A stretch of 64,000 bases of DNA from Tetrahymena thermophila SB210. Lineage: Eukaryota > Ciliophora > Oligohymenophorea > Hymenostomatida > Tetrahymenidae. Below are positions 1-49,800 of this stretch, one piece after another. The stretch is from positions 558,001 to 622,000 of the forward strand of contig NW_002476567.1 of the NCBI RefSeq assembly GCF_000189635.1, in the 5' to 3' direction. Position 1 is the stretch's first letter; each line of letters begins with the position of its first letter. The position numbers were made by a program, and so were the translations under genes. The notes beneath the pieces were generated by a model that saw only the letters and a program-made list of their open reading frames with translations, was not told the DNA's origin and made no database searches.

Positions 1-310
1 GGAAAAATACTTCTTTTTAAAAATAAATTTATCCTATTATCAATATGTACCACATCCTTTTTTAAAACATACTTTAGGTCGATGTAAAAAATAATAATAT
101 TTAAGTGAAAGCTCTACTGATTCACTTACTCAAAATTTAATACATTCAAATTAAAATATAAAGCAATATCAATAATTAAAAATATTAGATTTTTCAAAAA
201 ATTAAAATAAACTAAACTTATTTATTTATTTAACAATTTATTTTACTTAATAAAAAATACATAATTAAGATTTTTATTGAAAATAGTTTATTTTGCAAAT
301 ATCAAATAGA
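1..310. other. 3' flank of A1
   Basis: AT-rich sequence shared with the 3' flanks of A2-A5. Homopolymer A/T runs are common. No gene or clear terminator signal is seen. Confidence 0.7.
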
Positions 311-3300
311 TCATTTATATTTGCATAAATAAGACATTATATACTAATTTTCTAATATAAAATTTAGATCTATTAGGTCTAAGACTAATTTAGTTTTTTA
401 AATACTGTTAAACATATTTGAGTAAAATTTCAGATAAATGAACTGAGAAAGTATCACAAACAAAGCTAACTAAATAGATATCATTATGATATTTAATTTT
501 ATAAAATATGTGTAGTTATCATAAGATTTTTTCATAGTAAACTCAGTCAATGCATTTATGATGTAATCATAATACTTCTAGAAGTAGAATTAATCTGATA
601 TTGACAATTCACTAAAAACTTTGGACATATTTAATAAAAAAAAATCAGGATCATTTAAGTCGCCTTAATATAATTAATATTAGCTTTCAAACAACTATAA
701 AAACCATTTTGTTGATGAAATCAAGCCTGAGGAAAAAATATTCTACTTTACTTAATTACATTCTGTAACATTAAATCCTTTTACTGTTAAATATTATTAG
801 TTTTCATTAATCATTGAGCAAGAATTTTTTTAAAGAATTATCTCAATAAAATTATCATCAAAAAAAGAATTAAAATGCTCATTATTTTATAGATTATCCA
901 TAATACTATATAAGGAGTTTAATTTTTATTTTAATTGTTCATATTAATCTTTCTATTATTTTTAATAAGTTTAATAAAGATTATTTGCTCCATTATAGAC
1001 TATTACCATTAATACCCTTTAATTTGCTATTGTTATAACATACTCAGCTATACTGTTTATTTATTCTAATTATTTTAAATAAATATTTTAAGATTAATAT
1101 TTGTAAAAATGTTTTAAAAATAAATTTTATTTTAATAAAACAATTACATTAGAATTCAATATTCTTCTCAATTGCTTCAAAAAAATAGCTTTAATAAATA
1201 CCTACTGTAACTGAATAGATTATATTACACAGTAAATAAATAAATGCAAAAAAGCAAATTTTAAAGCTACACAAATTCAACTTTGATGTAGAACTCAAAC
1301 TTTTATTTTTTTGGATAGTTTGAATACAAGTTGAAGAAGCAAATGAAGATTTTATTCTATCTTTTTAACTGTCTAGATTTAATTAAACTTCATTAAATTG
1401 GCTTGATGGGTCTTGTGGCTACCTAGAAAGCTATTTCTTTATAATATCCTAAGAATCACTTACAAATTTTAGCATTTTTTAAAGTTTTTCAGGACTAAAA
1501 GTAGCCAAAAGAGCTAAAATTCTTTATCTCAGTTTTTGAATGTAAATAAAGATTGGTATGAAGCTCAAAGAAAAGGCAACTGAAATTAAGATATTCAATG
1601 ATAAATATATATTAGCCTGTTATTTGATATCTTAATATTTCGTTTTAATTGAAATCATAGCATTTAAATCAATTTTATCAAATTAATCTATTACTTATTT
1701 GTAATTAAAGATAATTTATATCTCATTTTAAAGTGTATCATCTAATTGATAAGCTACTTTGTACTATAAAGCTAATAAAATTTTTAAAATATACTAAAAA
1801 CTCTAATAGCTAACTAATTGTTTTCCTAATGGTTATGTAAAAGTAAAATTTAAATACTAATTCTCAACTTCTGAAAATAACGAATTTGTATAAGTAGAGT
1901 TTGCTTAGTAAGTTTAAATAATTAGATTTTTGTAATTGTTATAAATTTAAATTTAACTTGTTTAAATATCACCAATTAAATCTCTACCTGACTTGCTTTC
2001 TTAACCATCAAAAATGCTTACTTGATATAATTGTAATATCGATTAATACTGCAATATCAATTACTAGCACTTTTTTATGTTAAAGCTCCAATCAAAATCT
2101 TGATATTCTTCTCTTTGTCGCAATAAATTATTGTTTGTTTAAACAAAGTTAATTATATTCATGGCAATCATAGATAATAAGGCTAATATACCAGAATATT
2201 TTATTAATTGTAAACCAATTAATTTTGATGGTCTTTTAATCATATTGGTCATCTTCCTTTTTTATTTATTTAGTAAAAAAGTTAGTTCAATAAAAAATAT
2301 TTTACTTTTTGTAGGAATTTTCAGATTTTTAAGATTATATGCTAGTTTCTTGAAGTTTTTAAAGTGATTCAATCTTTTTGTTGGTGAATTTTTTTTTTTT
2401 ATCTCTTAGGGTTTTAGATTATTAAAATGATTTCTTTTCCAAATTCTATTCATGAGATTTCATTTTTTCTTTGAATGATTTAATAATATTTGATTAACTT
2501 AGATAGCTCGTTCTATGTGGATAGCTTACAATTTTATTAGGATTTTATATAAATTGATCAAACTTCAAATTTGTTTGAAAGTGATTAATGTTTTTTGGAT
2601 AATCTAAAGTAAACTAGTCAATTGTGTCAATAGAATTGAATGGATAATTTTAATCTAAAATTTGGTTTCTAGCTTTAATATTTGGTGAAACTAAATTTTC
2701 CTAATATAAAATCATTTTATTACTATCCCTATTAGTACTTAAAATATTTATTGAGGAGAATAAAATTTCAGGTTAACTACTTATTTCAGCTTGAATCTGC
2801 TGATTTGTATTATTTTAAGCTTTGGTTTCTTCTTAAACTTTCTAGTAACTGAATTATTATGATTACACTTTTAGTTTTGTAATTTCTGCAATACTATTTT
2901 GCAAAATTTTTGAAGTAAAATCCAGTTATTAGCACTGTTAACTAGGGTTTTAAATTATATTTTCATTTGAAATATATTTTAAATTGCTGTTGTTAGATCC
3001 ACTATAGGTTTTTTCAGAAATAAAGTTTCTACTATCTTCATTAATTTCGTTTTAAGTGAGAGAATTTTGTTTTTATTTAGCAAAAAATTTGCTTTTTTAA
3101 TCTAAAATTTACTTTTGCTATTGAGTGAATTCTTAAGAAATGATTTGGAATTGCTCTAAATGGTCCATTGATTATTTTAAAAATTCTATTTTAAGGTGAT
3201 TTTCTTCAATCAAATCTACTTCATAAATTTTTAATTATAAAATTTGAGTAAATTTATTTTCTATAAATGTGCACTGTGCAGATATTTTAAATATATCCAT

Positions 3301-6151
3301 CTATAATAGTAATTCTATAAATTCTGGTGATTATTTTAAATTATCAAATTGAGCTTAGCTTTTATTTTTTGGTTTCACAAATATAGTCTCATAAAATGAG
3401 TTTTCATATTGTTCTTTAATTTTAAATAATATACTTTGTAATTTAAATAATATTTGATAAACAATTTATTACTTTTTTTGGTAAAGCTAGCTAAAGTAGG
3501 CATGTATAAATCTAGTCTTATTTAATCAAGTGAATTCTTATTCTGATTTTCTTTAAAGAGAGTATTAAAAAGCATCTATGAGCATGTAATTATATTAAAA
3601 TTTTTTCCTATATCTACAGACAAATACAAAAAACAGTCTTTTATTTACTTAACCTAAGCGGTTACTCCATAATCAGATAAACCAATCATGCAAGTTTGAA
3701 GTTTAATTTAGTATGGGATAGCCCAACCTTGCTTATCGATTCCAATTAGCAAATTAAAAGATTTCGTATTTTATCTAGAAATGTTACTATCCAAAAAGTG
3801 TTTTATTAAATTACTATGAGCTTATGCTATTGACTGAGGAATCATATAATCAATATTCTTACCTATAACTTCATCTTATTAATAAATAGGGATAACATTA
3901 TATAGATTATTTGAAGCTCTTATTATTTTTCCTATATTGATCAAACTTACAAAAAGCACACAACTTTAGTTTGAAAAGTTATAAATATTTTTATTTTAAT
4001 TATAATTTTCATTTATACTTAGCGAATTCAGTAAGTTAGGTTATTAAATATTTTTAGAAAGTGGTTAATTATGAAGAAATACTTCTTAAAATATTTCAAT
4101 TAGTATCTAAAGAGTAAAACATTATTTAGAAATATTTATCATTTTTAAAAGTTTATTGCTTAGTTTTCCTTTTTTATTTAAAAGAATCATGCTTATTTCG
4201 AATGATTCTTGTAAATCCACATAATTAACTCCAATTTTTTGTATTAAATTTTTTTTAATATTTAAACATTCTTTAAGCATTTATATACATTCAGAAAGTT
4301 CTTCATCAAATTTTATTTATTCAAAGAAGCTGTATTTTGATTAATTGACTAGATTTTACAAATCGAGGTTACTTTATGTAGGTCTTATAAGAAATGATTG
4401 TTAATTAACATATTTAATGCTATTAAAGAGCATTTATTTTTATGATAGATCTAATTTTTAATTTTATTCATTCCAGATTTTAAGAGCTAAAGTTAATGCT
4501 TTTGCTTCATTTTATAATACATCAACAAAAAGTGCAATTTATATGTTTGATACAAAAAACGAATTTCCTTAGCTATTTACATTTTCTAAAATATCCTCTA
4601 CATACTTTGTTATGAATTTGTTTCTAATCCTTTCGCTTTCACGGTCTTATTAGGTTAGGATTTCCTATTTAATAAAGTAATATACAAATAAATAATTTTT
4701 TCAATGATTTAACTACATTTGAAAGATAAAATCCTTTGATTTTGATTGATTAAATTAATTAAAAATAAATATTTGAAATAGAAAGTGAGTTAAAAGAATT
4801 CAAATGAATAGGATTACATCAGAATACTTTTTTAGCCTTACAAAATTTTTAATTAAGTAAATTCATAATTAATTTAATTAATTTGTGTAAGATTTTATTA
4901 GATAATTAAGATCATGCTAAATAAATAAATATTACATTTGAACAAAAGCAAAATGATTGTTGAGTACATGAGATTCTATGGATATAAATAATCTATTCTA
5001 AAAATATTGATTCTTAAGAAATCAAATATCTATCATAGCTTTGTGGGCTTTTATGGTAAAAATGCTTAATAAAAATATCTAAATGCTCCAAATCACTTTA
5101 AGAAATATTTAATTTTCTCAAGTTATCTTTAGGAATATTAAATTTGAATTTCAGAGAATCAATCAAAAAGTTAAGTCTAGCTTCAATTAAACTCTATGCA
5201 ATTTTATAGCAAAAGGGAATCGAAAAAATTATAAATAGATAATATACTTATACCTAATTGTCTTTCATATATAGCAAAATATAAATATTCTAGGCTAGAT
5301 TAAATAAGCAAAACGAACAGTTCAAAATCTGAATGGTTTTATTCAAGTATGGAATATAGATAATATTAAGGAAAAATAAAATAGAATATTTGAGAATGTT
5401 ATAGATTATCAAATAATTAGAATTAAAAAACCTATATAAAGTCATATTGAAGATGTCAATTAATACTTCCATGTAATATATCCATTTAAATCTAACATTT
5501 AAGTAATCTGTCTAGATAAATCTGGCATCATAGTTGTGAAAGCAAATAAAAAAGGCTTTAATAAAAAAAATTAATTTATTTGAAACAAATGAGAAAAATA
5601 AGTAATTTACTGATAGTCCATGTTAGAAAGATGTTAATGCTTGATAAAATTGTTTAATCCTTTATGTTAAATAAAGAACTCCTAGTTGAAATCAAAAAAA
5701 ATGTATATCTATACACTTATAATATAGCAGATATAATTAGATCATTGCTATTATTGTTATTGTTACTAGATTTGTTAAATAAAATTATGCTTGATTGATC
5801 TTTTTACTTGATTTGATTTTTTGAAAACTTAACAAGTTTTATTATTATAAAAAATGTTATGATGCTATTTAATATTAAAAAAAAAATGAGAGAAGTAAAA
5901 TTTTTTGATAGATTATTAAAGTATTATTCTAGTTGGTTAAGGTAGTGAATATTTTATTTATGTTATCGTATTGAAGAAGTAATTGAGAATGAAAAATAGA
6001 GAGATTGCTTAATTATTAGTAAAATAATAGACAGTAAGAATCCCCTATCATAGAGCTTCACTATGTCATATGTTTAGAAGACAATAAATTTTTAGAGTAG
6101 ATTCTGTTAAAATAAATTTAAAAGTTAATTATTTTAATACATTATCTTCAT
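311..6151 (-). CDS. A1: PAS-domain multi-pass membrane protein, TmcB/TmcC-like, 6 exons, 1774 aa
   Basis: Exons on the minus strand: 6151-5611, 5555-4936, 4664-3473, 3413-2306, 2256-1148, 1065-311. I read this copy codon by codon with TAA/TAG as Gln. The coding length is 5325 nt and ends in TGA (313-311). Residues about 40-310 hold six to eight hydrophobic segments. A His-Cys cluster (HRISC then FCFC) closes exon 2 near residue 385. A helical TPR-like region covers about 390-600. A PAS domain covers about 622-725 and ends in the family motif GWAIPYQIKLQ. A Q/N/S-rich linker follows to about 1150. Four C-terminal membrane segments come next, with a Cys-x19-Cys ectodomain loop before the last one. 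The short cytoplasmic tail contains NFILENQYIMSYL. It is the first copy of the tandem array; an orphan terminal exon lies upstream. By analogy it is a membrane sensor; ligand and signal are unknown. The TmcB/TmcC name is from memory of the family. Confidence 0.87.
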
Positions 6152-7304
6152 TTTATTTTAGAATATATTTATTCTTTATTAATTTATTGATTTAATTAAT
6201 TATTTATTTTAATTAATTTATAAAAAAATAATTACTAATTTTTGATCACAATATATAAAATAAAACATTAACTTCTAACCTTTAAAAAATCTTTTCTTAA
6301 GATTATACATTAATCATAGATTTGAATTTTTAGTTTTAATCAATTAATCAATTTTATATATCTTTACATTTAAGAATTTCTTATAATTATTAGGTAGGTT
6401 ACAAATCTCAATCATAAAAAATATAAATTCTTAAAAATTGCAAAAAGCACAATTAGTCTATAAAATTTATCCAAAAATATAGAAAAATATTGATTCAGTT
6501 ATCCATATAAATTCTTGATTTATTGTAATAAATAATTAATAGAGTAATTTAATAGACCTTATCACCTAATCGCATTCTTAAAATAAAATAGTATTAATTA
6601 GATATAATACCTAATGTATATTAATACTATTGATAAGTCTCTTTAAAGCGCTAATTATTTTCTAAGTAAATCAATAAATACTATTAAACTTTATAAAATA
6701 AAGTTAAATCACATCAAAAAAGTATTAAGCTAATAAAAAAATTATAAATTATAAATTTGGTTTTTAAATATAGAAAATGGTGTGTGTATTTTTTACTATT
6801 TACATTAATTTAGATTAAAATATCTGCATTTTAAGTAAATAAATAAATTTTTAATGTTTTTTTGTAAAAATAACATAAAACATTATTAGATTATTTTTAT
6901 TTGAAAACTATAAAATTAAAGACATTTTTTTGATGTTTTTAATATTCATATTTTAATTTTCAAAATTGATTTTACCAATGAAAATGAAGAAAAATTAATT
7001 AGTGGATATCTCACATTATTTTTTGTGTAACCCGTCTTTTTTATTAAATTCAATCTAAATAAAATTTAAAAGTGATGTAACTTTTGAATTGAATCCAACA
7101 GCAAAAATTTTAAATTTGATTCCTTAACTTATGTTTTTTACTTACATTCTTCAGGATTGTTTATTACAATATATAAAACATGATATAAAGTCAAAAAGAG
7201 AAATATTTTATTGAGGAAAGTTAAACGAAAATCTAATTAAAATTTAGAATTATTATAATTATTTCATATTATTTTGTTTTTTGATTATTTTAACTAATGT
7301 TTTG
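6152..7304. other. Spacer upstream of A1
   Basis: No gene. Two blocks recur upstream of the A copies. One is about 6365-6575, matched at 20865-21075, 28555-28765, 37915-38125 and 45775-45985. The other is about 7040-7240, matched near 29215-29400, 38580-38760 and 46630-46810 and mostly lost in unit 2. The first block is the best candidate for the A promoter or 5' leader, but all units are recent duplicates, so conservation alone is weak evidence. Confidence 0.5.
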
Positions 7305-8130
7305 TTCCATTCATTAGATAATTTGAAATAAGTTAATATCTATAAATTTTCTTCTAGACCAAGAAGAAGCTTTATTTATTGTTTATTACCTCTAAAATAA
7401 TTTATAGTAAGCTATAAAAATCACCAAAATTTTACTAACAAGTGAAATGGCTACCAAAATATGATTTAGAGTAATCATTTGGTTATAGTGGTAATAAGTT
7501 AAATTGGTTACTTTCTACTGAACACTCTTAACTATATAAAATAGATAAAGTCTATAATAATATCTATCAATAAATGAATACGATTTTCCTTTTTCAATAA
7601 TTGATCCCAAAAATAGTTTGAGATTTTTCGTGTAATAAACTGGGATTCTAGAGATATATTTATCACAAACTTGTATAATGGATTTGACTAAATCTGCATT
7701 AAATATGCCATTTGCTGCCTATTCACACTCCTTTAAAGAAAAACCGAATCTGTAAGTAAATCTAAATTTTGAGCGCCTGAGATATATTTATTAAATTCAT
7801 CATGTTTGTATCCTGTAACAGAATAATAATTGTCGACAACAGAGTATAATAAATTCACTCTACCTTAGCTATTTTCAGCAAGAGCTACATGCAAAGCTAA
7901 TTAATATCAAGAGCTACATACAAAGCTAATAAATCTTTATTTCAAGCAAGAGTTAATAGAACCAATGGTATTCTTACAGTATTAACATTAGAAGACGTTC
8001 AAAAAGTCATCTATATATTAATTAAAGTAAAAGCTAATTAATTAAAAATTTTTTTGAGATACCATAAAACTTCTTAAATCAACATGTGAAGGAAACCAAA
8101 ATTATTAAATTAAAGTTTATTATAATAAAC
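7305..8130 (-). pseudogene. Orphan F-type terminal exon, unit 1
   Basis: This stretch aligns with the last exon and the distal part of intron 5 of gene F (46881 to about 47740). It is read on the minus strand between A1 and B and has no upstream exons: the similarity stops at about 8130, and B has its own terminal exon at 9040-8292. Relative to F it carries deletions in the ectodomain part, including loss of the segment with the first conserved cysteine, and in the last membrane segment and tail. The TGA used by F is altered. It is a dead duplicate end rather than a gene. Confidence 0.75.
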
Positions 8131-8291
8131 TTGACAAAAAAATGTTATTTTCAGAAAATGGCGTGACTTATTTTAGTATAATTACAATATATACCTAACA
8201 ACAAAGAGTTTAACATTTTTTTAATTTTTGAGTAATGTGTATGTTATATGTTTTAAGTAATATATAAATTTATATATTTACAAATATCCTG

Positions 8292-11200
8292 TCATTTAAT
8301 TTAAGTAAACTAGCTATATAATTTTCTGTTATTAGCCAAAGAATGCAAATCAAATACATCTAAAGATAATTTCGTTTGTAAATGTTATTTTCTAAAATAA
8401 GAGAAAAAGAACATCCAAACAAAAATAAAAATAGTGCAGCTTATAGCCATCTGTAAAATAAAGTAAAAGTAGTTACTATCTATAATACCTTAATAATCTC
8501 CTATTATTTAATAGCGAATACATCTCTTGTTAGCAGAAAATATTTACTGAAAGTTAACTCTGAATTGATTTTATTAATAAATTGAAAAAGATTATAATAA
8601 CACTTTTTCATTCACTATAAATTATTTGATATTCATTTAAGCAAGGATTTCAAACTATTACTATAAATACGAATACTGACTAGTTAATGCTGCAATCATC
8701 CCTTTAGATAAAATAGAATCTTTTACTAAGTAGCAGTCAGTAATATTATACCCTCCTCCATTTACATAATAAGAATACTATTAGGTGATATTACAAGCAT
8801 CTCCTGTAAACATCCCATTCATGAAATACATAAAAAAAGTTTAATTATTTCTATTAACATATTACTGCTACGAATACAATTAAAATAAATTATCATTCAA
8901 AGCAAGATTCTACTTGATTTCTGTTTTATATTTTTAATAATAATATTCAAACTCTTAAGGATAGTATATTTTCAAATGTAAAAGAATAGGTGTATAGGCT
9001 ATACTTCTATTCATAGCTTATTAGACATAAGTGAGAGTATCTAATTTTTAAAAAAATATTAATTAAATTATTTATAAAAAAATATTTTTAAATATGAATG
9101 AAAATGGTTTTGTTGCCAAAAGTAACTTTTAAAGTTTTGATTCTTTAATTCTAAAAATAAAAATATAATTTACTTAAAAATAATCTTTCTTAAACTTGTA
9201 GCTAAGTGAAACTTTGCACTAAAATAAAATTCGAGAAAGAGTAAAGCTGGATTACAGAAAGGTTCAAAAGGCAAACGAAACTTAAAATAATATTTAACTA
9301 TTTGAGTTAAATTATTTTTTTAGACCTAGTAACATTTTTTTTTTCATTGATTTCAAATAATTATTTTTCTTTTTGTAATTAAAAGTGTTAAGCTCCTTCC
9401 AATTATTTGTTATATTAAATACATTCATTTGATCTCTTACTGTAATTTAATACTTCTTCTAAATTGACTTATTTTTGTTTATTTGAATCAATCATAGATA
9501 TCAAAGAACTAGAAGTAAATGAGCATACAGCCTTAAGGATTTTATTTCGTTTTTACTAAATATAATAATAAATTGCTTAGAAGAATAAGAAAAATGTAAT
9601 TGCAACACCAAGTATTGTATAAAAGGTGATTTTAGCTTATATATTTAAAGCTTAAAATTTTAAATTTATTGCATCTTCAATAGCTTTTGAAACATTTTAG
9701 TATGAAGCTTGTAAATTTTCAAAATTATCCTTTATTAACCTATCATTCGTCTCTATAAACGATGAAGTTGAGTTAGCCACAGCAAATACACTTTCTAACA
9801 TAAAATAAACAATGTGCTCTAATCTATAATCAGATGTACTATCTATTGTAACAAACTAATTAATTTTGCTTTCAAATTAGTATTATATTCTTTTACTGAG
9901 CAATTCATCCTAAACTTATTAAGTTGGATAAGTCATTAACAAGTGCTTTACAACATATCCTTTAAGTTAACTTAATTGATTCTTCAGCTGTGCTTTTAAT
10001 CTGGGAGTTAAATTATTTTTCTCATTTTTTAAAAATAAATTATTCAGTATATAAGTATCCTGAGTCAACTATTAAAACGATAAATCTGAGACCACTTACT
10101 ATAATGAAATTTGAACCTAAGATGGCCAGTCTAAATTGAGTATTTCCTATTACTGACTAACATAAGCATTATTAAGGATACTATAGTTGACTATTGATAA
10201 TACCATAATTAAAATAAAGAAGGCAATACCAAATATATTAATTAATTTCAATCCAAAAATTTATCTCTTAGAATGAATATTTCTCGCCATCAATTAAAAT
10301 CTAAAATAAATAAATTATTAATAAAAATCATTTTTATTTTAATTTACTTGTTGTAAGTTAAATCTGTTTATCGTGATCTAGTTTCGCTGGCTTAAAATTT
10401 AATATTTTCAATATTGTCTTCTTAAGACATTTTATCTCTATCGTCACTTTCAGCTATTTAAATCTATTTGATTTTTTATATCTAACTTTATCTTTTTAGC
10501 AAATCTACATATGATTATTAATTAAAATTTTTGATATTTATATTATATTTCAAATTAAATAATAAATATAAATTCAATTAAACATTTTGAGATAAAACTT
10601 TAAAAATATTATCAAATTTAATTAAAACTTTTTTGAAAAAAAATTAGAAATGGGAATAGAAAATTTTGATATTTTCAAAATGAAAGAAAATTAAAATAAA
10701 TTCAATAATTTTTATTCAACTTCCACTCATTTTGATTTTATGGATATTTTCGATTCTCTTCTCTAATTGTGATGATGGAATAATATTTTCGAAAAAAAAA
10801 GTAAAAAGGATATTTTAGAAATACTTACTGCTATTTGAAAAAATTCTATCAGTGAGATAAAGATTGTCATTATTAGATTGTGTTTAACTTACTATTAGCT
10901 CAGTCCTTTAAGATAGCTATCTTTTTGCAGTTGGAGTTTCATCATCGAAATTTTCTATTTTAGAAAATCTGGATATGGGACTATTTTAAAATTTATTGAA
11001 AGACAAGGTTTGTAAATGGAAAAAATTTTTTTCATTTTGGTTAAAAATTTTAGATTAAAATAGTTTTTTATCATCAAAAATAGAAGAAATTCTCTTTATT
11101 TTTTCTGGTTCTAATTCGTTTAAATTATCTTATGAGCTATTTATTTATCTTAAGCTTATTACTTTTATTTGAATAATTCTTAGGTATTTGCTTTTTTTGT

Positions 11201-13927
11201 AAATACAGTCAGCTTTCAACTAAAACGCTACCGCTTCTTCATTATCCTATTGCCTTACAGATTTTTATATTAAGCTGTGTCTTCTTAACAATTCAATGGA
11301 AGGCTTTGTAAGAACTGTTTCTAATAACCCATATTCTGAATTATCTTTAAATAAATAAAGATAAAAATGATTTAAAATCAACTAAAATAATATTTTACTT
11401 TGATTTAATTCTTCAATAAAATTTTCTATATCTTTCATTATCATATTAATTTTTATATTTTTAATTTAGTTTGAGAGATTGTTATGACCAATTAATTTTT
11501 CATGTAGATTTTCAGAAATTGCTATAATTTATAAAGTTTTTGCATCTGCAATCAAACAATCAGTGAATTCTTTTTATTTTTATATTCTTGAACAGATTCC
11601 TATTTCTGTTGCTGAGAAAATAGTTAATTAAAAGTAAATCATATAACAAGTAGCCCAACCCCTTCCATCTATGCCAATCTACTCTCTTTAACTTATTGAG
11701 TCAAGAGTTAAACTGTCTTCATTATATTTCTATGATTAATAGTAGTATACGTTGATTGCTTCATCGTGAAAGCTAGCAATTTAGGGAGGCATTAATACAT
11801 TTATGCTTTAACCAATTAATGGAAGCTTTTTGATATCCCAATTCAAAAAATCATGATAATTTAATGTAGCTTTCTTGACTATAAAAGGGTTTCTTTCTCT
11901 TAATGATAAAAAAAGTATAACAGAATCAGTTAAGTTTGTTAATTCAATAGTCTACTTGATGTATTGTTTGACTTTTAGATTTGAGTGGTCCTTCTTTTAA
12001 AAAAATGTTTTCATATTTTTCAAATATTAAGTTAAAGACCTATCGCAGCAAAATTCTGATTCAATAATATCAACAAGCTGAGGAATTAATGCGTTGAAGG
12101 GATTTAAATTAATAAGCTATTTTAGCTTTTCGTTTATATATTACAAATTCTATCTAAGAATAGTCAGCTTATCTTAGAGTTAAGATAAATTAATTATTTG
12201 TGAGTATAATAAATGATGGAGGAGCTCACATTTTTTAATTAGACATTTTAAAATATCTGAGCAAACTTGATACTCTTTGTCCTCATATTATATCGCTTAA
12301 ATCAATTTTAGTTATTAATTTTGTTCACTCATATAAATTTATTCAGTTTCGTATTCGCGTAGTGATTAAATATTTTCCTAAAAGTTATTCTAAAATGATT
12401 TATTCTAAGACTTTTTAGTAAGATCAAATAGATAAAATTGCTAAGCCTTGAATGGTAAATACTTATAAAAAAAAGTATAATACATTTATTAAGTTAACAA
12501 AGACTATTATTTATTCGTACTCTACAAATTTTAGAAACTCCCAAATATCTTAAACGCACATAACGTTGATTACTAAACATTTTGACAGGCATCAATCAAA
12601 AAATAAAGAAACCCAAAAATAAATTTATTATCCTTAACGTCTTAATAATTATCAATTGAATAGTATGAGCAAATAATCTCAATTATTTCTTATTTCTACT
12701 TATTTTCTTTCAGCATTTCTAACGTTTCTAATTTCTATTTAATTTAAAATAATATTTAAAACATTAAAAAGATCAAAATGTTTACATTTTAACAGAAACA
12801 TTAACTAGAGCGCTTAGTACAGTTTAGTTTATGATAAAAAAACAAGCTACTTAAGTAAATGGAGACATGATTATTAATATAATCATCATAATTAATTTTT
12901 GATTCTTGAAATAAAATTCTTAGAATGTAATCAATATCAGATAGTTTATTTTTTGATAAGAAAGATTAGTGATAATTTTAATCAATAGTGTTCATAAAAT
13001 TGTATAGCAGATTCATTTCTTTCTTTACTATTAATTCGCTGGTAATCTTTATACTTAAAGGCAGTAAAAAAAATAATAATGCGTATTTGTCTTAAATGCT
13101 GTACTAGAAATTAAAATTAACAGTATAAACACCAAATGTTATGATTAGTGAAATAATTATTGATAACTTCAAAAATTTTATATTTTTACATAAAATACTT
13201 TCAGAATATAATTCAGTCAAATAATTAATTAATAGCATAATGATCATGCAAATTTTGAAAACGGAGTCTTAAATTAGATACCAAAGTATAAGTATAATTA
13301 TATCCTCAATAATTTAAATAATATTATATTTTGGAGCTCTTGTTTGCAAGTAATCTTTACTAATATATCTTAAATCATAATCATGTATAGCGGCAAACAA
13401 ACCTAATATTTTAGTAATTAAAATATTATGAAATTTAATTCTTTATATTTTGAAGCAAAATAAGAATATTTATAGTATAAAGATAAGCAAAAAATCATTT
13501 TACTAATAACAACGACCAGGGTAAAGTTAAAGATTGTCAAAACAGGCATTTAATCAAAATAATATTTTAGAGAAATTGCACTCAAAGGAAAAATGAGATT
13601 ATTATAAATTTAAAAGTAAAAAGAGAGTATTTTTTTAGATTTTTCTAAGATTTTATAAGTCACTATGTTAATCATTAAGGAAAATATGCAAAAGAAATTT
13701 AGTATCAAAGTAATTAGTGAGATATTTTACCACATATTTTTAATTATTTATTGGTTACTACTACTAACTTAATTCAATATTTCTTAGCTAAAAAATAAAT
13801 AAATTGAGAACGCATATTTAAAAGTGATTAGAATGAAACAAAACTAATAAGAACGGTCGTAATGTTTCACAAGATCGTAGCTTCTTTAAATATAGAATAC
13901 TTTAAAAATATCTTTGATAGCCTGCAT
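8292..13927 (-). CDS. B: divergent PAS-domain multi-pass membrane protein of the same family, 7 exons, 1624 aa
   Basis: Exons: 13927-13504, 13402-12786, 12734-11399, 11344-10829, 10453-10348, 10300-9174, 9040-8292 (4875 nt, TGA stop at 8294-8292). The ATG at 13927 opens a frame leading into SYDLVKHYDRSY, which matches YDIVKLYDR of the A genes. Membrane segments lie in residues about 25-300. HKLNC and a later CFC close exon 2 near residue 345. A PAS-like domain covers about 614-726 but reads GRGWATCYMIYFQ where relatives have GWAIPYxIKLQ. Two introns split the linker (10828-10454 and 10347-10301) where relatives have one. The last exon keeps the Cys-x19-Cys loop and final membrane segment. B is much more diverged than A1-A5 and sits between array units 1 and 2, so it is either an older resident or an inserted member. 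Exon models rest on splice phases and family alignment; the 375-nt intron and the 106-nt exon are the weakest parts. Confidence 0.8.
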
Positions 13928-30584: not shown

Positions 30585-30601
30585 GTATATCAAAATCAAA
30601 A
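30582..30601. repeat. Left inverted repeat of the Tc1-like element (with flanking TA)
   Basis: ATAGTATATCAAAATCAAAA; the exact reverse complement is found at 31709-31728. The first A and the TA belong to flank or target duplication. Confidence 0.88.
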
Positions 30602-31725: not shown

Positions 31726-31728
31726 TAT
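31709..31728. repeat. Right inverted repeat of the Tc1-like element (with flanking TA)
   Basis: Exact reverse complement of 30582-30601. Sequence beyond it (TATAATTAAAGCATTCAAA) resumes the flank seen in unit 5 near 39562. Confidence 0.88.
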
Positions 31729-31861
31729 ATAATTAAAGCATTCAAATAAAAATTTAAAGTAATGTCAAAAAATAAAAAATATTATTTATTTATTTAACAA
31801 TTCAAATACTTAATAAAGATATATGATTAAGAAATGGTTTATTCTGGAAATTAAAAATAGA

Positions 31862-37712: not shown

Positions 37713-38795
37713 TTTATTTTAGAATATATTTATTATTTATTTTAATTAATTTATATTAAAATAATAATTAGTTTTTGACACAATTAATAAGATAAAACCC
37801 TAATTTCTAACCATTAAAAAACACTATCATAAAGATTCTACATTAATCATAGATTTGATTTTTTAGTTTTAATTAATTATTTAATCAATTTTATATATCT
37901 TTACATTTAAGAATTTCTTATAATTATTAGGTAGGTTACATATATCAATCATAAAATTAATAATTCTTAAAAATTGCAAAAAGCATAATTAGTCTATAAA
38001 ATTTATCTAAAAATATTGAAAAATTTTGATTCAGTTAAATAAATTCTTATTTTAGTTTATTGCAATAAATAATTAATAGAGTAATTTAATAGACCATATC
38101 ATATCATCTCAGCTGATTCTTAAAAAATAATAGTTTTAATTATTTATAATTTATAATATATATTATTTTTATAGATAAATTCTCTTTAAAAGTTAATTAT
38201 TTTCTAAATAAATCATGAATATTAAACTTTATAAGATAAAGTTAAATTAAATCAAAAAAGTATTCAATTAAAAAAAAAATTATAAATTATTAACTTGTTT
38301 TTTTAAATTGAAAATAATTTATGCTAATTTACTTATTTTAAATAAAAATATCTTCATTTTAAGGGAATAAATTTTTAACATATGATTGTAAAAATTACCT
38401 AAACACAATTTTAGATAGTATTGTATAACTATAAAAACGAAAGCCATTTATATTATGTTCATAATACTCATATTTTATTTCATTTTTAATTGGTAAAATT
38501 GATTTTTCAAACGAAAAAAGAAGAAGAATTAATTAATTGATATCTCATCTTATTTACAGTGTAACTCGTTTTTTTTATTAAATTCAAGATAGATATTTTT
38601 TGAAAGAGATGTAACTTTTATATTGAATCCACACACCAAAGTTGATTATTTAACTTTTATATTCTTCGGGATTGTTTATTAGAATACATACACATGATAT
38701 AAAGTCAAAAAGAGAATATTTTAATTAGAAAAGTTAAGCGAAAAGTAAATTAATATGTAGAATTGTATAGAATTAATTTGTTTTTTATTATTTTA
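37713..38795. other. Spacer upstream of A4
   Basis: Contains the recurrent blocks at about 37915-38125 and 38580-38760. No gene. Confidence 0.5.
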
Positions 38796-39214
38796 ACTAA
38801 TCTTTTGTTACATTCATATAGATAATTTGAAATAAGTTAATATATTAATTATCTTCTAGTGTGTGAATTTCAACTGAATCAAGAAGAAGCTTTGTTTCCT
38901 TAAGCTAGTTCGTTTACTTCTAAAAGAATTTAAAGTAAGTTCTAACTGTCGTCAACATTAAATAAACATGTAAAATGGCTAGTAAAACTTTAAAATAATC
39001 ATTAGGTTATAGCAATCATAAGTTAAATTGCTTTTAATGTAATAGATTTGTATTCTAGAGATATATAGATCATAAACTTTTTTAATTAATTTGACTAAAC
39101 CAGCAGTAAATATATCATTTGCTGCTTAATCACACTTCTCTATAGAAAAACCCGAATATGTAAGTAAATCTAAATTTTGAGCAAGTTAATGGCATTCATT
39201 TCCATAAAATAAGA
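38796..39214 (-). pseudogene. Orphan F-type terminal exon, unit 4, half lost
   Basis: Only the 3' half of the F-type last exon remains, corresponding roughly to the last membrane segment and part of the ectodomain. It also lacks a block near 39015-39040 that the other copies have. Similarity ends abruptly near 39214 at a short stretch of unrelated, less AT-rich sequence, unlike units 1-3 where it runs on into intron 5. Confidence 0.68.
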
Positions 39215-39735
39215 GAAAGACTGTAATGGTTCATATATTAAGGCCACCTCGATTTCAGTTTAGACATCTCAATTACCGGCTTTTTGAATGTAAAAAAAAT
39301 CTATTTAAATATATCATATTTATATTTTTTATATTAAAATTAATATTAAATATAATTATAATAATAATTTAGAGATAAATAAAATATTAATCTAATTTTA
39401 TTTTCAATTTTTAAAGAATAAATATTTCTTTTTAAAATCAATTTATCTTATCATTAAAATATACAATATCTTTTTTTATAACATCATAGATCATCTAAAA
39501 AATAATAAAAATTAAGATAATACACTGCTTATACACTTATTGAATATATAGTAATTGAAATTATAATTAAAGCATTCAAATTAAAATATAAACAAAGCAA
39601 CATCAAAAATTAAAAATATTAGATTTTTCAATTAATTAAAATAAATTTATTTATTTGGATAACAATTCAAATACTTAATAAAAAATACATCATTATATTT
39701 ATATAAAAAAGTTTATTTTGTAATTTTCAAAGAGA
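39215..39735. other. Spacer between the unit 4 orphan and A5, with foreign-looking patch
   Basis: About 39215-39300 has no match in the other units and is visibly less AT-rich than its surroundings (AAGGCCACCTCG, AATTACCGGC). From about 39330 the ordinary 3' flank of A5 resumes. No gene is recognised. Confidence 0.5.
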
Positions 39736-42700
39736 TCATTTATATTTGCACAAATAAGACATTATATACTAATTTTCTAATATAAAATTTAGATCTATTA
39801 GGTCTAAGACTAATTTTGTTTTTTAAATTTTGTTAAACATATTTGAGTAAAATTTCAGATAAATGAACTGAGAAAGTATCACAAACAAGGCTAGCTAAAT
39901 AGATATCATTATGATATTTAATTTTATAAAAAAGGTGTAATTATCATAAGAATTTTTCATAGTAAACTCAGTCAATGCATTTATGATGTATTCATAATAC
40001 TTTTAGTAGTAGAATTAATCTGAAAGAGATAACTCACTAAAAACAATGGACATATTTGAAAAAAAAAAATCAGAATTATCTAAGCCATCAGCTTAATATA
40101 ATTAATATTAGCTTTCAAACAACTACAAAAACCATTTTGTTGATGAAATCAAGCCTGAGGAAAAAATATTCTATTTTACTTAATTACATTCTGTAATATT
40201 AAATCCTTATACTGTTAAATATTATTAATTTTCATTAATTGTTGAGCAAGAATTTTTTTAAAGGACTTTCTCAATAAAATTATTGTTAAAAAAAGAATTA
40301 AAATGCTTATTATTTTATTAGTTATCTATAATATTATATAAGGAGTCTAATTTTGATTTTAATTGTTCATATTATCCTTATTACTGTTTTTAGTAAGTTT
40401 AATAGAGACTATTTGCTCCATTATAGACAATCACCATTATTACCCTTTAATTTGCTATTGTTATAACATACTCAGCTATACTGTTTATTTATTCTAATCA
40501 TATTAAATGAAAATTATAAGATATTTTTGTCAAAATATTTTAAAAATAATTTAAATTTAATAAAAAAAATTACTTTAGAATTCAATATTCTTCTCAATTG
40601 CTTCTAAGAAATAGCTTTAATAAATGCCTACTGTAACTGAATAGGTTATATTACACAATAAATATAAAAATGCAAAAAAGCAAATTTTAAAGCTACACAA
40701 ATTTAACTTTGATGTAGAACTCAAACTTTTATTTTTTTGGATAGTTTGAATACAAGTTGAAGAAGCAAAAGAAGATTTTATTCTATCTTTTTAACTGTCT
40801 AGATTTAATTAGCCTTCATTAAATTGGTTTGGAATGCCATATTACTCCCTCAAAAGTTCATTCTTTATATTATCCTAAGAATCATTTACAGATTTCAACA
40901 TTTTTTAAAGTTTTTCAGGAGTAAAAGTAGCCAAAAGCGCTAAAATTCTTTGTCTCAGTTTTTGAATGTAAATAAATATTGGCATGAAGCTCAAAGAAAA
41001 GATAACTGAAATAAAAATATTCAAAGCTAAATATAAATTAGCCTGTTATTTGATATCTTAATATTTAGTTTTAATTGACAACATAGCATTTAAATCAATT
41101 TTATCAAATTAATCTATTACTTATTGGTAATTAAAGAGAATTTATATCTCATCTTATAATGTATCATCTAATTGATAAGCTACTTTGTACTAAAAGGCTA
41201 ATAATATTTTTAAAACATACTAAAAGCTCTACTGGCTAACTAATTACTTTCCATATGGATATGTAAAAGTAAAATTTAAAAATTAATGCTAAACTTCTGA
41301 ATAAATGGAATTTGTATAAGTAGAGTTTGCTTAATAAGTTTAAATAATTAGGTTTTTGTAATTGTTATAAATTTAAATTTAGCTTGAATAAATATCATCA
41401 TTGAAATCTCTACCTGTCTTGCTTTCTTAATCATCAAAAGTGTTTGATTGATATAGTTGTAATATTGATTAATACTACAAAATCAATTATTAGCACTTTT
41501 TTATGTTAAAGCTCCAATCAAAATTTTGATATTCTTCTCTTTGTTGCAATAAATTATTGTTTGTTTAAACAAAATTAATTATATTCATGGCAATCATAGA
41601 TAGTAGCGCTAAAATACCAGAATATTTTATTAATTACAGACCAATTAATTTTGATGGTTTTTTAATCATATTGATCATTTTTCTTTTTTATTTATTTATT
41701 TATTTATTTAATTAATTAAAAAGTATGTTCAAAAAAATATTTTACTTTTTGTAGGAATTTTCAGATTTCTAAGATTATGTGCTGGCTTCTTGAAGTTTTT
41801 GAAGTGATCCAATCTTTTTGTTTGTGAATTATTTTTGTTTATCTCTTAGGGTTTTAGTCTATTAAATGGATTCTGTTTCCAAGTTCAATTCACGAGATTT
41901 CATTTTATCTTTGAACGATTTAATAATATTTGATTAGCTTAGATAGCTCATCCTACGAAGATTGCTGGCAGTTTTATTAGGCTTTTATATAAATTAATCA
42001 AAGTTCAAATTTCTTTGAAAGGTATTAATATTTTTTTGATTGTAGTTATCTAAAGTAAATTAGTCAATTGTTTCAATAGAATTAAAAGGATAATTTTAAT
42101 CTAAAATTGTATTTCTGGCTATTATATTTGGAGAAATCAAACTTTGCTATTATTATATCAATTTAGTACTATCCCTTTTAGTACTTAAAACATTTATTGA
42201 GGAGAATAAAATTTCAGGTTAACTGCTTATTTCTGCTTGAATCTATTGATATGTATTGTTTTAAGCTTAATTTTCTTCTTAAACTTTGTATTAGCTGAAT
42301 TATTATGATTACTGTTTTAGTTTTGTAGTTTCTACAATACTATTTTGCAAAATTTTTGAAGTAAAATCCAATTATTAATACTATTATCTAGGACTTTAAA
42401 TAATATTTTCGTTTGAAATATATTTTAAATTACTGTTGTTAGATCCGCTATAGGTTTTTTCAGAAATAAAATTTCTACTATCTCCATTAATTTAGTTTTA
42501 AGTGAGAGAATTTTGTTTTTAGTTATTAAAAAATTTGTTTTTTTGATCTAAAATTTACTTTTGCTATTGAGTAAATTCTTAAGAAATTATTTGGAATTGC
42601 TCTAAATGATCCATTGATTATTTTAAAAATTCTATTTTATGGTGATTTTCTTCGATCAAATCTACTTCATTAATTTTTAATTATAAAATTTAAGTAAATT

Positions 42701-45581
42701 TATTTTCTATGAATGTGCACTATGCTGATATTTTAAATATGTCCATCTACAGTAATAATTCTATGAATTCAGGTGATTATTTTAAATTATCAAATTGAGT
42801 TTAGTTTTTATTTTTTGGTTTCACAAATATTGTCTCATAAAATGAATTTTCATATCTATCTTTAATTTTAAATAATATACTTTGTAATTTAAATAATATT
42901 TAACAAATAATTTATTACTTTTTTTAGTAAAGCTAGCTAAAGTAGGCATATATAAATCTAGTCTTATTTAATCAAGTGAATGCCTATTATGATTTTCTTT
43001 AAAGAGAGTATTAAAAAGTATCTATGAGCATGTAATTATATTAAAATTTTTTCCTAAATCTACAGACAAATACAAAAAACTGTCTTATATTTACTTAACC
43101 TAAGCAGTTACTCCATAATCAGATAAGCCAATCATGCAAGTTTGAAGTTTAATTTAGTATGGGATAGCCCAACCTTGCTTATCGATTCCAATTAACAAAT
43201 TATGAGATTTAGTAATCTATCTAGAAAAGTTACTATCCAAAAAATTTTTTATTAAATTACTATGAGCTTATGCTATAGACTTTGGAATCATATAATTAAT
43301 ATCCTTACCTATAGATTCATCTTACTTATAAATGGGGATAACACTATATAGATTATTTGAAGCGCTTACTATTTTTCCGATATTAATTAAACTTACAAAA
43401 AGCACACAACTTTAGCTTTAAAATTTAAAAATATTTTCTTTTTAATTTAAATTTCTTGAATTCAGTAAGTTAAATTATTAAATATTTTTAGAAAGTGGTT
43501 AATTATGAAGGAATGCTTCTTAAAATATTTCAATTATTATCTAAAGAGTATAGCACTATTTAGAAATATTTATCAATTTTAAAAGTTAACTGCCCAATTA
43601 AGCTTTTTTCTTTAAAAGAATCATGCTTATTTCGAATGATTCTTGTAAATCTAAGTGATTAACTCCAATTTGTTGTATCAAATTTTTTTTTATATTTAAA
43701 CATTCTTTAAGCATTTGTATACATTCTGAAAGATCTTCTTCAAATTTTATTTATTCAAAGAAGCTGCGTTTCGATTAATTGACTAGATTTTTCAAATCAT
43801 GGTTACTCTATTTAGATCTTATAAGAAATTATTATTAATTAACATATTTGATGCTATTAAATAGCATTTATTTTTATGATATATTTATTTATTAACTTTA
43901 TTCATTCCATAATTTAAGAGCTAAAGTTAATGACTTCGCTTCATTTTATAATACATCAACGAAAAATGCAATTTATAAGTTTTATACAAAAAATGAATTT
44001 CCTAAGATATTTACACTTTCTAAAATATCCTCTACATACTTAGTTATGAATTTTTTTCTAATTTTTTCGCTTTCGCGGTCTTCTTAGGTTAATATTTCCT
44101 TTATAATAAAGTAATATACAAATAAATATCTTTTAAATGATTTAACTTATTTTGAAAAATAGAATCCTTTGATTTTAATCGATTAAATTAATTAAAACTA
44201 AATATTTGAAATAGAAAGTTAGTTGTAAGATTTCAAATGAATTGGATTACATCAGTATACTTTTTTAGACTTACAGAATTTTTAATTAAGTAAATTCATA
44301 ATTAATTTAAATTAATTTGTTTAAGAATTTATTAGATAATAAAGATCAGACGAAATAAATATTACATTTGAACAAAAGCAAAATAATTGTTAGCTGCATG
44401 AATTCTTGTGGAAATAAGTAATCTATTCTAAAAAGATTGATTCCTAAGAAGTCAAATATCTATCATAACTTTGTGGGCTTTTATGGTAAAAATGCTTAAT
44501 AAAAATATCTAAATGCTCCAAATCACTTTAAGAAATATTTAAATTTCTTAAATTTTCTTTAGGAACATTAAATTTGAATTTCAGAGAATCAATCAAAAAG
44601 TTAAGTCTAGCTTCAATTAAACTCTAAGCAATTTTATAGCAAAAGGGAATTGAAAGAGCAATTAATAGATAATATACTTTTACCAAATGGTCTTTAATAA
44701 ACAGCAAAATATAAATATTCTAAGCTAGATTAAATAAACAAAGTGAACAGTTTAAAATCTGAATGCTTTTATTTTAGTATGGTATTTTGATAACATTAAG
44801 TAAAAATAAAATAGCATATTTGAAAATGTTGTAAATTATCAAGACATCAGAGTTAAAAAAATTATATAAAGCCATATTTAAGATGTCAATTAATACTTCC
44901 ATATAATACATCCATTTAAATCTAATATTTAAGTAATCTCTCTAGATAAATCTGGCATCGTAGCTGTGAAAGCAAATAAAAAATGCTTTAATAAAAAAAA
45001 TAAATTTATTTGAAGCAAATGAGAAAAATATTTAACTTACTGATAGTCCATGTTAGAAAGATGTTAATACTTGATAAAACGGTTGAATCTTATATGTTGA
45101 ATAAAGAACTCATCGTTGAAAGCAAAAAAAATGTATATCTATACACTTGTAATATCACAGATATGAATAGATCTTTGTTATTATTGTTGTTGTTAATTGA
45201 TTTGTTAAATAAAATTATACTTGGTTGGTCTTTTTACTTAATTTGATTAGTTGAAAACTGAATAAGTTTTATTATTATAAAAAATGTTATGATGCTATTT
45301 AATGTTAAATAAAAAATGAGAGAAGTATAATTTTTTGATAGATTATTCATGTTATATTCTAATCGGTTAAGGTAGTGAATATTTGATTTATGTTATCGTA
45401 TTGAGGTTGGAATTGAGAATGAAAAATACAGAGAATGCTTAATTATTAGCAAAATAATAGACAGTAACAATCCTCTGTCATAGAGCTTCACTATGTCATA
45501 TGTTTAGAAGACAATAAATTTTTAGAGTAGATCTTGTTAAAATAAATTTAAAAGTTAATTATTTTGTTATATTCTCTTCAT
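39736..45581 (-). CDS. A5: PAS-domain multi-pass membrane protein, TmcB/TmcC-like, 6 exons, 1773 aa
   Basis: Exons: 45581-45041, 44985-44366, 44098-42919, 42859-41746, 41682-40574, 40493-39736 (5322 nt, TGA at 39738-39736). Exon 3 is 12 nt shorter than A1 and exon 4 is 6 nt longer. Domain order is the same as A1. The copy looks mosaic. Its 5' half (exon 2 and the exon 3-4 junction) is almost identical to A4. Its 3' half shares variants with A1, such as the run AGTCTTAGACCTAATAGATC in the last exon, where A2-A4 read differently. A5 lies next to gene F, whose terminal exon occupies the place held by orphan fragments beside the other copies. This adjacency is probably the ancestral arrangement of the array. 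Confidence 0.84.
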
Positions 45582-46880
45582 TTTATTTTACAATATATTT
45601 ATTCTTTATTTATTTAATTATTTTAATTAATTTATAAAAAAAACAATTCCTAGTTTTTGACACAATTTATAAGAAAATACCCAAACCTCTAACCATTAAA
45701 AACTATATCATACTAATCATAGATTTGATATTTTTAGTTTTGATAAATTAATAAATTTTAGAAATTTTTACATTTAAGAATTTCTTGTAATTATTAGGTA
45801 GGTTACATATCTCAATCGTAACAAACATTAATTCTTAAAAATTACAAAAAGTATAATTAGTCTATAAAATTTATCTAAAAAATATTCAAAAATCTTGATT
45901 CAGTTTCTCATTTAAATTCTTATTTTGGTTTATTGCAATAAATAATTAATAGAGTAATTTAATCAACCTTTTCATCTAATCTCTTTTTTTAAAAATAATA
46001 CTTTTATTTAGATATAAAATTTACATAAACATATTAATACTGTTTATAATTCTTTTTAAATCTTTAATAATTTTCTAAATAAATCAATAAATATTAATAA
46101 ATTTTATAAGAAAAAGTTAAATTAGATCAAAATAGTATTTAATTTCAAAAAAATTATTTGTTTTTTTAAAATTGAAAATAGTTTGTGTGAATTTATTTTA
46201 TTATTTATCATAATTTAGATAAAAATATCTGCATTTCAAGTAAAAAAATTTTTAAATATATAGAAAAATAACCTTAAAACATTATTAGATAATTTTAATT
46301 GCATAACTATAAAAACGAAAGCCATTTTTATTATGTTTGTAATGCTCATATTTTATTTATAGATATTATTAAATATAGTATTCTTAGACAAAAAATGAAA
46401 TATTACAATCTGAGGAACATCTTCTCCGTTTAATTAACTATAATCATTTGACTAAAAAAATGTCCTTTATAAAAATAGATTTGAAATACTAATGTACAAA
46501 TTTATTTCCTTTAATAAGCCTTTAAATTAATTAATGGTAAAATTGATTTTTACCAATGAAAAAGAAAAACAATTAATTAATTAAAAATTAATGAATATCT
46601 AACCTTATTTATAGTGTAGTTCGTTTTTTTATTAAATTCAAGTTAGATGTTTTTTGAAAGAGATGTAACTTTTGCATTAAATCCACACACTAAAATTTGA
46701 TTAATTAACTTTTATTTTTTTACATTTTCAGAATTGTTTATTACAATATATATACATGATATAAAGTCAAAAAGGGAATATTTAGAAAAGTTAAGCGAAA
46801 AGTTAATTTAAATTTAGAATTATATAGAATGATTTCTTATTACTTTGTTTTTTGATTATTTTAACTAATTTTTGTTCCAT
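45582..46880. other. Spacer upstream of A5
   Basis: Contains the recurrent blocks (45775-45985 and about 46630-46810). About 46360-46540 is an extra stretch missing from the same place in units 3 and 4. No gene. Confidence 0.5.
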
Positions 46881-49800
46881 TCATTTAGATAATTTGAAAT
46901 AAGTTAATATGTATTAGTTCTCTTCTAGTGCGTGAATTTCAACTAAATCAAGAAGAAGCTTTGTTTCCTTAAGCTAGTTCATTTACTTCTAAAAGAATTT
47001 AATGTAAGCTATAACTATCGCCAACATTTAACTAACAAGTGAAATGGATAACAAAATATGATTTAGATTAATCATTAAGTTATAGTGATCATAAGTTAAA
47101 TTGGCTACTTTCTACTGTACACTCTGAACTATATAAAATAGATAAAGTCTATAGTAATAGCTATCAATAAATGAATATGATTTTTCTTGTTCAATAATAG
47201 ATCCCAAAAATACTTTTAGATTTTTAATGTAATAGACTGGCATTCTAGAGACATATAGATCACAAACTTGTTTAACAGATTTGACTAAACCTGCAGTAAA
47301 TATACCATTTGCTGCCTGATCACACTCTTCTAATGAAAAGCCAGAATCTGTAAGTAAATCTAAATTTTGAGCAACTTATTGGCATGCATTTCCCTACAAT
47401 ATACCAGAGATATATTTATTAAATTCATCTTGTTTGTATCTTGTAACAGAATAATAATTATCTACAACAGAGTATAGTAAATTCAGTTCTAAACTCACTC
47501 TACTTAAGTTAGTTTCACCACGAGCAATATACAAAGCTAATAATTCTTTATTTTAAGCAAGCGTTAATAGAACCAAAGGTATTCTTACAATATTAACATT
47601 AGAAGAAAAATCTGTAACATTCAAAAAGTCATCTATATTAATTAAAATAAAAGCTAATTAATTTAAAATTTTTTTGAGATACCATAAAACTTCTTAAATT
47701 AATTTGTGAAGAAAACCAAAATTATTAAATTAAAGTTTATCTTAACAAATTTTTTAATATGCTCTCAAAACTTTATAAATCATGATGGTAAGCACTAAAA
47801 ATTGTGATAAATAAAAATTTCAATTAATAATATAAAAATCATAAACCGTATACTACATTTGATATTTGATTATATTTCTAATGCAGGTATAAAATTAATT
47901 AATCTTAATCGACTTATTTTATTTTTTTAAGATTGTTATTTTGAAATTAGTAAAATATTTTTATTTCAATAAGAAAAATTTGATTAAATAATTTGTTGAT
48001 GGATTCATGTTTATTTACTTTCTTTATTAATTGATTGATATTTTTTTAAATAAATGTTTGAGAAAAATATGAATTAGTTGAAAATTACTTATAAATTATC
48101 TGTTGGATCTCTCTGAGGTAAAAAAATCTTTGACTAAAAAGTAACTTGTCATTGAATGTATTTATACTAAAACAAAGAACAGAGCTGAATATAATAAAAT
48201 TTTAAAATCGAATCTGGGTAAACGATTAAATGTGCTAATATTCTTTTTCTTTTTAATTAAGTTCTTGACGTCTATATTGTTTGCCTGTCCATAAGATTTA
48301 GCTAAGTCCTTCTTTTTGTGATTATTTTGATTTCTATTTAATTTCTCTTCACTAATCTAGAGAATATTTATATAGTTAATAGTTTCACTAAGTAAAAACA
48401 TGAGCTTATTTGGTGGGAAAGTCGTAAATAGAATTAGGATTTCTTGCCTCTTACTTTAGATTAAGGAATAAATAGGGATAAAACTAACTGAAAAAATAAT
48501 AGAAGTCACTAGTATAATAGTCATTGATATGAACTCCTATCTTATAGTGCTATCAAAATTGTCATTTAATTTAGCGTTAACATAATTTTGAATAGCTTAG
48601 ACTGAGTTAGTTGTGTTTACATAATTCAAACTAATTTACAATGAATTCTGTCCAAGGGGATCAAGAGAGTATACTTGCTAATACATATATGCAAATAGAG
48701 CTTCTTAAATGTAGCCAAAGCCTAAATAATAATTTTCAATTCTTACTGTAGTAAATGCAAATGTGAATGTTTGATGATAATCCATAGCAAATGAAAAAGT
48801 ATCTGACTCAGATTTATCAGAATTTACATAATCAATCATTAACTATTTCATAATTTGATGTCTTTGGATTTATTTACTTTATATATTTTTAATAATATTT
48901 TTCTAAGTATCTTGTTTAGGTTAGAAATAAGGAATAGAAAGTGCTTGCATTAACATTTAGTCACATATTGATTAGCTTAGAGTAGTTAGTAACTTAGAGC
49001 CCCAATCTATATATTTATACTATGATTTTTAAGTTTTTAAGCTTTAGCCTAAAGAGTAATAGTTAAAGATATTTAGTATTAGAAACCCAAAAAAAGCAAT
49101 ACTCCAAGTTAATTTGACAAGTGTAAGTCCTTTTATCTTTAATGGTGCTTAAATGCTTTCAATTATTGATTTTCTGTTTTAAAAATTGTTAGTTAGAAAA
49201 ATGTCATTGATTTAAATAAAAATTTTACCTAAAAGATGTCCTACCAGACTAAGATGTTTGCACGCTTCCCTCTACATGTATGTCTTATTTAATGTTTATT
49301 TATTCAATTTAACGAGATAACGAATCTCTCATTGTGCTATCTTTTTAACTAACCTGTTAAGGATTATTACTAATAAAATTATTATTTCTTGAAGTAGACA
49401 ATAAACCCTATTGCTGCAGTAGATTGCACGAACTAAGTTTTGTTTGCTAAGCCTGAAAGGTATCTGCTGATTATTTTGTACCTTCAAATGTACTTTGCTA
49501 CTTTCTATTTTGAAATACAAATCTCTTTTATTGTGAAAGGAAACTCATTTTATTGTCATATAAAAGCGAATTGTCTTTTTCATCTTAAACGATCTGTTAA
49601 CCTACTTGTTTATTTATTAGATTTATACTTGTCTAAGGTGATAAAATTTTAGTGAATTAGAATTCATCTTCGGCCTGGTAATATTGGTTGCTATTTTCAT
49701 AATTAATTTCTTGTATAAAAGATAGCTAATTAGCTGATAATTCATTTTGTAAATCGTTATTTTAGGAGTATGGATTAATTTAGTTCGCTTGAGATGTTAA

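Follow-up and report, generated by a model that had tools for sequence, protein, structure and literature searches.

In the ciliate Tetrahymena thermophila, five copies of a gene that we call A form a tandem array in which the duplicated unit is A plus the tail of its upstream neighbor, gene F. We describe this array in a window of 64,000 nucleotides (positions 558001 to 622000 of contig C13, numbered here from the first base of the window), and we searched the genome, 101 Mb in 445 contigs, for related sequences. A full F gene lies upstream of A5, and copies of the last exon of F lie upstream of A1 to A4. The array likely goes back to one founding break in the last intron of F, followed by expansion and by exchange between neighboring copies.

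Anatomy of the A array

The genes of the cluster all belong to one family and stand head-to-tail on the minus strand. From left to right, the order is X0 (left of the window), A1, X1, A2, A3, a transposase-like remnant, A4, A5, and F. In a self-comparison of C13:508-692k, it continues to the right of F with G, H1, H2, H3, I, and further genes. Self-comparison, with minimum alignment lengths of 150 and 250 bases, placed the five A units at approximately -129..8132, 14467..22243, 22253..30338, 31728..39211, and 39307..47752, with identities of 84.4 to 88.7%. It bore out the original prediction, made from the letters of the window, that units 1 to 4 each carry an orphan last exon of F while in unit 5 the same exon is joined to a full F gene. 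The five A genes are 84 to 89% alike and share six exons with conserved splice sites, coding for 1783 to 1803 codons. Their models were set by hand from the splice sites, and A1 was projected from A5 on the five-unit alignment. The A3 flank starts about 10 bp past the end of the unit 2 orphan, and X1 separates units 1 and 2. Between units 3 and 4, the A4 flank is split by about 1.15 kb of transposon-like DNA (Table 1).

Similarity to F had been predicted to stop inside intron 5 of that gene. In units 1, 2, and 3, it does end within the last intron, at F positions 47729 to 47752; in unit 4, the similarity stops earlier, in the exon. The number five fits the five introns of the A model, and the 5' exons of F are incompletely modeled. 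Because bases of the F intron were copied along with the exon, the event took place at the level of DNA. The copies retain much of the exon, with 683, 737, 732, and 438 of its 752 positions still holding a base in units 1 to 4, respectively. Upstream exons of F, which the original prediction had named as the thing to look for beside the orphans, were sought by means of reading frames from the F region; next to the orphans, only exons of A and X1 were matched. X1 itself was considered as the missing body of the unit 1 orphan and rejected, since it has its own last exon.

A truncated end of F is present at four of the four A-unit junctions (shortened further at one of them), and the complete gene stands at one end only, beside A5. 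The same holds for a second array of H genes to the right, in which the tail of gene I is present at both internal junctions and the complete I lies beside H3. The array has a structural orientation, with full F marking its upstream end. The direct polarity that had been claimed for the array stands as geometry but not as an order of ages, given that signals conflict along the genes and that the F tails give a star relationship (7:7:6).

Table 1. Features of the window, in window coordinates
Feature	Positions	Strand	Remarks
A1 gene	311..6151	-	6 exons; one +4/-1 indel pair leads to TGA at about codon 395 (projected from A5)
Orphan F last exon plus ~110-120 bp of F last intron, unit 1	7316..8132	-	decayed
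X1	8292..13746	-	diverged family member, homologous to X0, separating units 1 and 2; 5' end approximate
A2 gene	14882..20669	-	6 exons, open, 1783 codons
Orphan F last exon plus intron piece, unit 2	21405..22243	-	decayed
A3 gene	22552..28364	-	projected frame open; intron-2 donor lost (GT to GA)
Orphan F last exon plus intron piece, unit 3	29461..30340	-	decayed
Transposase-like remnant	30560..31730	-	splits A4 3' flank; Tc1/mariner by eye
A4 gene	31862..37712	-	6 exons, open, 1803 codons
Orphan F last exon, unit 4	38820..39211	-	cut off inside exon; internal deletions
Dispersed repeat	39212..39306	.	unit 4/A5 junction; 95-bp stretch, core ~64 bp
A5 gene	39736..45581	-	6 exons, open, 1797 codons
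F last exon	46881..47632	-	open, 752 positions; source of orphans
F last intron	47633..48088	-	456 bp, GT..AG (by eye); unit breakpoint at 47729-47752
F gene body	48089..52970	-	5' exons approximate
Decayed G copy (3' flank plus last 368 bp of last exon)	53571..54184	-	71% to 54867-55496
G gene	55129..60885	-	family member; 5' end approximate
H1 gene (3' part)	61173..64000	-	first unit of second, younger array continuing right of window

Decay of the orphan exons and constraint on the genes

We counted substitutions in two-state columns only, with at least four of the five copies present. In the orphans, singleton substitutions fell evenly over the three codon positions (58:59:52; position-3 share, P = 0.51), and units 1 to 4 contributed 52, 41, 38, and 38 of them. 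The last exon of F carried 11 (4:0:7). The codon-position pattern of the orphans differed from that of F (P = 0.04) and from that of the A gene bodies (P = 0.009). Insertions and deletions numbered 7, 6, 6, and 8 per orphan. The orphans thus decay neutrally, as dead copies of a living and conserved F exon. Because the exon in F is open and slow whereas the orphans change fast and equally at all codon positions, we take them to be debris copied from F, which supports the earlier proposal that A and F were the original pair.

The A genes behave differently from their tails. Across all 10 pairs, synonymous divergence (dS) was 0.192 to 0.258, and the ratio of nonsynonymous to synonymous divergence was 0.295 to 0.39 in 10 of 10, which points to purifying selection. 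Distances between orphans (0.18 to 0.25) match the dS of the A genes, and gene and tail are therefore of about one age. In effect, the orphan exons serve as built-in neutral yardsticks next to constrained genes. A single sequence can therefore tell how old the units are, how copies have exchanged material, and where one side of the founding break lay.

Proposed founding break, exchange, and rival histories

Exchange between copies left its imprint on the A genes. Among 1461 variable ungapped sites, groupings of two copies against three favored the adjacent pairs (65, 47, 55, and 54 sites) over the six non-adjacent ones (12 to 18). The physical order of the genes was uniquely best, with only 1 of 60 possible orders scoring so high. 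The four favored groupings are incompatible with one tree and alternate along the gene, which argues for exchange between copies. Long runs of shared sites were longest in A4/A5 and A2/A3 (P of about 0.001 per pair).

We propose that the ancestral state was a head-to-tail pair, with F upstream and A downstream. One illegitimate joining, presumably in the germline, would have had one end in the last intron of F, about 100 to 120 bp above the last exon, and the other in the 3' flank of A. The resulting repeated unit would consist of A, its 5' spacer, and the last exon of F, severed from the promoter and upstream exons of that gene. Homologous unequal exchange may then have added more units, with later exchange or conversion mainly among neighboring copies. 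Meanwhile, purifying selection kept the A genes, and the orphan exons decayed neutrally.

The original prediction held instead that repeated duplications broke inside the last intron of F. If each duplication broke there afresh, the long last intron would be a fragile site. Consistent with this idea, the second array broke in the last intron of its own neighbor, gene I, the left ends of the A units differ, and the sequences past the break show no significant alignment. However, the F-side ends of three units lie within 24 bp in an intron of 456 bp, a coincidence that, by rough arithmetic, independent breaks would produce about 1% of the time within the intron and far more rarely across the gene. 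Moreover, an orphan of G, which lies between F and G, broke inside an exon and not in an intron. One founding break is favored because of these three clustered ends together with the mosaic exchange between A copies, and they fit it better than the repeated breaks that had been predicted; we consider the latter less likely and, as an account of the array, improbable.

A related idea is that germline breaks fall preferentially in the last introns of these genes, perhaps because of germline-limited DNA located there. In both arrays (F for A and I for H), the break lies in the last intron of the upstream neighbor, 65 to 120 bp above the last exon. A transposase-like remnant or a dispersed repeat is also present at two of the four junction regions of the A array. 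We regard such a preference as doubtful.

Several observations weigh against a single founding break and the history built on it. The F-side junction is common to three of the four units, and the A side is heterogeneous. The unit 4 orphan has a different end, inside the exon (at about F 47401), after which the dispersed repeat follows. Beyond the breakpoint, sequences did not match significantly between unit 1 and unit 3 (P = 0.83), the A4 and A5 flanks (P = 0.23), unit 1 and the A1 flank (P = 0.25), or unit 1 and the A5 flank (P = 0.53), so the case for a single founding event is carried by the F side. About 100 bp of 3' flank common to A1, A2, and A5 is absent from A3, which calls for a later deletion or another break. 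The non-adjacent pair A1/A3 also has two long shared runs (P = 0.001 and 0.007, uncorrected for ten pairs). The difference between F and the orphans reaches only the P value of 0.04 given above, with few singletons in F. X0 lies about 8.4 to 3 kb left of the window, next to A1, and X1 lies next to A2, but X0 and X1 share 67% DNA identity compared with 86.5% for A1 and A2, and the entry of X1 into the array is not accounted for. Finally, in older clusters of the family, no orphans were found in 30 kb of contig C178 (4 of at least 9 genes) or in 50 kb of contig C135 (3 of at least 4); the examined parts have one tail per gene. From these two contigs, it does not follow that the whole family shows the pattern.

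It is also conceivable that the orphan exons are functional, either by encoding short proteins or by providing A or H with a regulatory 5' part. In the H array, both orphan copies do keep 248 open codons without indels, although their nonsynonymous and synonymous changes (6:2 and 2:3) are too few to tell. The four orphans of the A array, however, have indels and show even substitution across codon positions, and A5 has its own ATG about 1.3 kb from the F tail. We consider a function very improbable, and the orphans are probably functionless. Least probable of all is the opposite polarity, in which the tail was native to the A unit and the body of F joined late, leaving the long last intron as a fusion scar: this intron is indeed long (456 bp, versus 80 in A5, about 57 in G, 58 in H1, and 214 bp in I), but inspection by eye puts a phase-1 intron at the homologous position of A, F, G, H1, and I, the F tail is closer to the tails of G to K (35 to 40%) than to those of A (26 to 27%), as is the most conserved body segment of F, and the tail in F is the slow, open copy.

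A younger array, comparable systems, and the gene family

The A array has a counterpart to the right, where the H array is a younger instance of the same design. It consists of three units on C13 at 619 to 643 kb (61052 to 84940 in window numbering) that are 93.9 to 96.3% alike and end at 84918 to 84940, inside the last intron of gene I (85067 to 84854). Copies of the last exon of I lie at both internal junctions, each with 248 open codons and no indels, with tail sequence at 68054 to 68797 in window numbering; their counts of nonsynonymous and synonymous changes are too few to judge selection. The H1 model applied to H2 and H3 gives stops. Two arrays of the same design but of different ages provide a before-and-after view, with tails open at 94 to 96% identity and dead at about 85%. 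Across C13:508-692k, we found eight last-exon-like places outside 18 modeled genes. Seven are at junctions (four of F, two of I, and one of G), and the eighth, at 128.7 to 129.2 kb, was taken to belong to the following gene as its own last exon.

Arrays of this type are known elsewhere. In the CUP1 array of Saccharomyces cerevisiae, the type-1 repeat contains a complete gene plus YHR054C, which matches the last 1 kb of RSC30 exactly; one end of the array has a complete RSC30 (PMC4232551). That report infers a nonhomologous founding junction and describes unequal crossing-over in existing arrays, along with five repeat types that have different junctions among strains and repeats that differ little (PMC4232551). 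As at CUP1, units 1 to 4 of the A array each hold a gene plus a truncated neighbor, with the complete neighbor at one end. Unlike CUP1 as described there, the A array is old (dS of about 0.2), its tails are decayed, its break is intronic, and A and F belong to one family. At the human RCCX locus, truncated TNXA and STK19B (914 bases of the 3' end) mark the duplicated module, and unequal crossover and conversion follow duplication (PMC8362596). The A array resembles this account in that truncated neighbor genes mark the unit and exchange follows; RCCX differs in being a multigene module, commonly of one to three copies, that is polymorphic in people. The A array belongs to the CUP1/RCCX type, and its mechanism is ordinary and well known, if unusually well recorded here.

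For T. thermophila itself, it has been proposed that clades of chromosome-breakage-site repeats arose through a rare first duplication by microhomology end-joining, after which germline unequal crossing-over became easier (PMC5182062). Our proposal applies the same two-step logic in the same organism. Tandem duplication has also been reported for species-specific paralogue clusters and leucine-rich repeat (LRR) genes (PMC6564038). The passages cited from these two reports concern breakage sites and LRR genes, and they mention no unit made of a gene plus its neighbor's tail. Our literature search, which covered titles and the beginnings of abstracts, turned up no report of the present cluster, a result that does not prove it to be unpublished.

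Two further elements lie at junctions of the A array. The transposase-like remnant matched Pfam DDE_3 at an E value of 0.0098, below the cutoff, and the unrelated DUF3958 scored better (E = 0.0012). A 326-base piece searched against the genome matched only itself. This remnant sits in macronuclear-type DNA. For the dispersed repeat, an 85-base query (39211 to 39295) had 28 further matches in the genome, including two no more than 130 bases apart on contig C57. A 54-bp Tt.REP tail is reported to be retained in 169 copies (PMC6564038), and the repeat at 39211 to 39295 is a candidate for it.

The assignment to T. thermophila is backed by one ciliate telomerase RNA match in the genome and by a telomerase protein (TERT) piece whose aligned parts, apart from the edges of an intron, are identical to PDB chain 6d6v_A, a T. 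thermophila chain. The window was read with genetic code table 6, which gives minus-strand frames of 602 to 945 codons; the standard code was rejected on the grounds that it leaves no closed stop-to-stop open reading frames of at least 120 codons in the window. Scanning family pieces and models yielded no confident Pfam domain. A profile of 10 members searched against PDB matched 12 sequences with weak E values (0.01 to 0.39), including the PAS proteins BMAL1, DosP, FixL, and PER2. Only 1 of the 10 members matched Pfam PAS_9 (a weak E value of 0.028), and three unrelated families outscored PAS_9 in single members. At the sequence level, the conserved segment of the family weakly resembles PAS; modeling its structure gave an unusable result (predicted local distance difference test score [pLDDT], 41). 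For the tail, the fold model was all-helical (pLDDT, 79.7), with no PDB match at E values of 0.001 or less. The exons of A5 (541 to 1161 bp) do not have the 90-bp architecture of Tetrahymena LRR genes, and no LRR family was among the Pfam matches of the scanned A and F pieces and the H1 and L models. The family may be "TmcB-like"; a literature search on this label gave nothing apt among the papers listed.

The most conserved segment of the family is encoded in at least 58 places in the genome (E values of 1e-5 or less), 20 of them on C13. Contig C135, which holds one of the older clusters, also carries a tandem repeat at 61847 to 65045, with units of roughly 360 bp that are about 80 to 85% alike.

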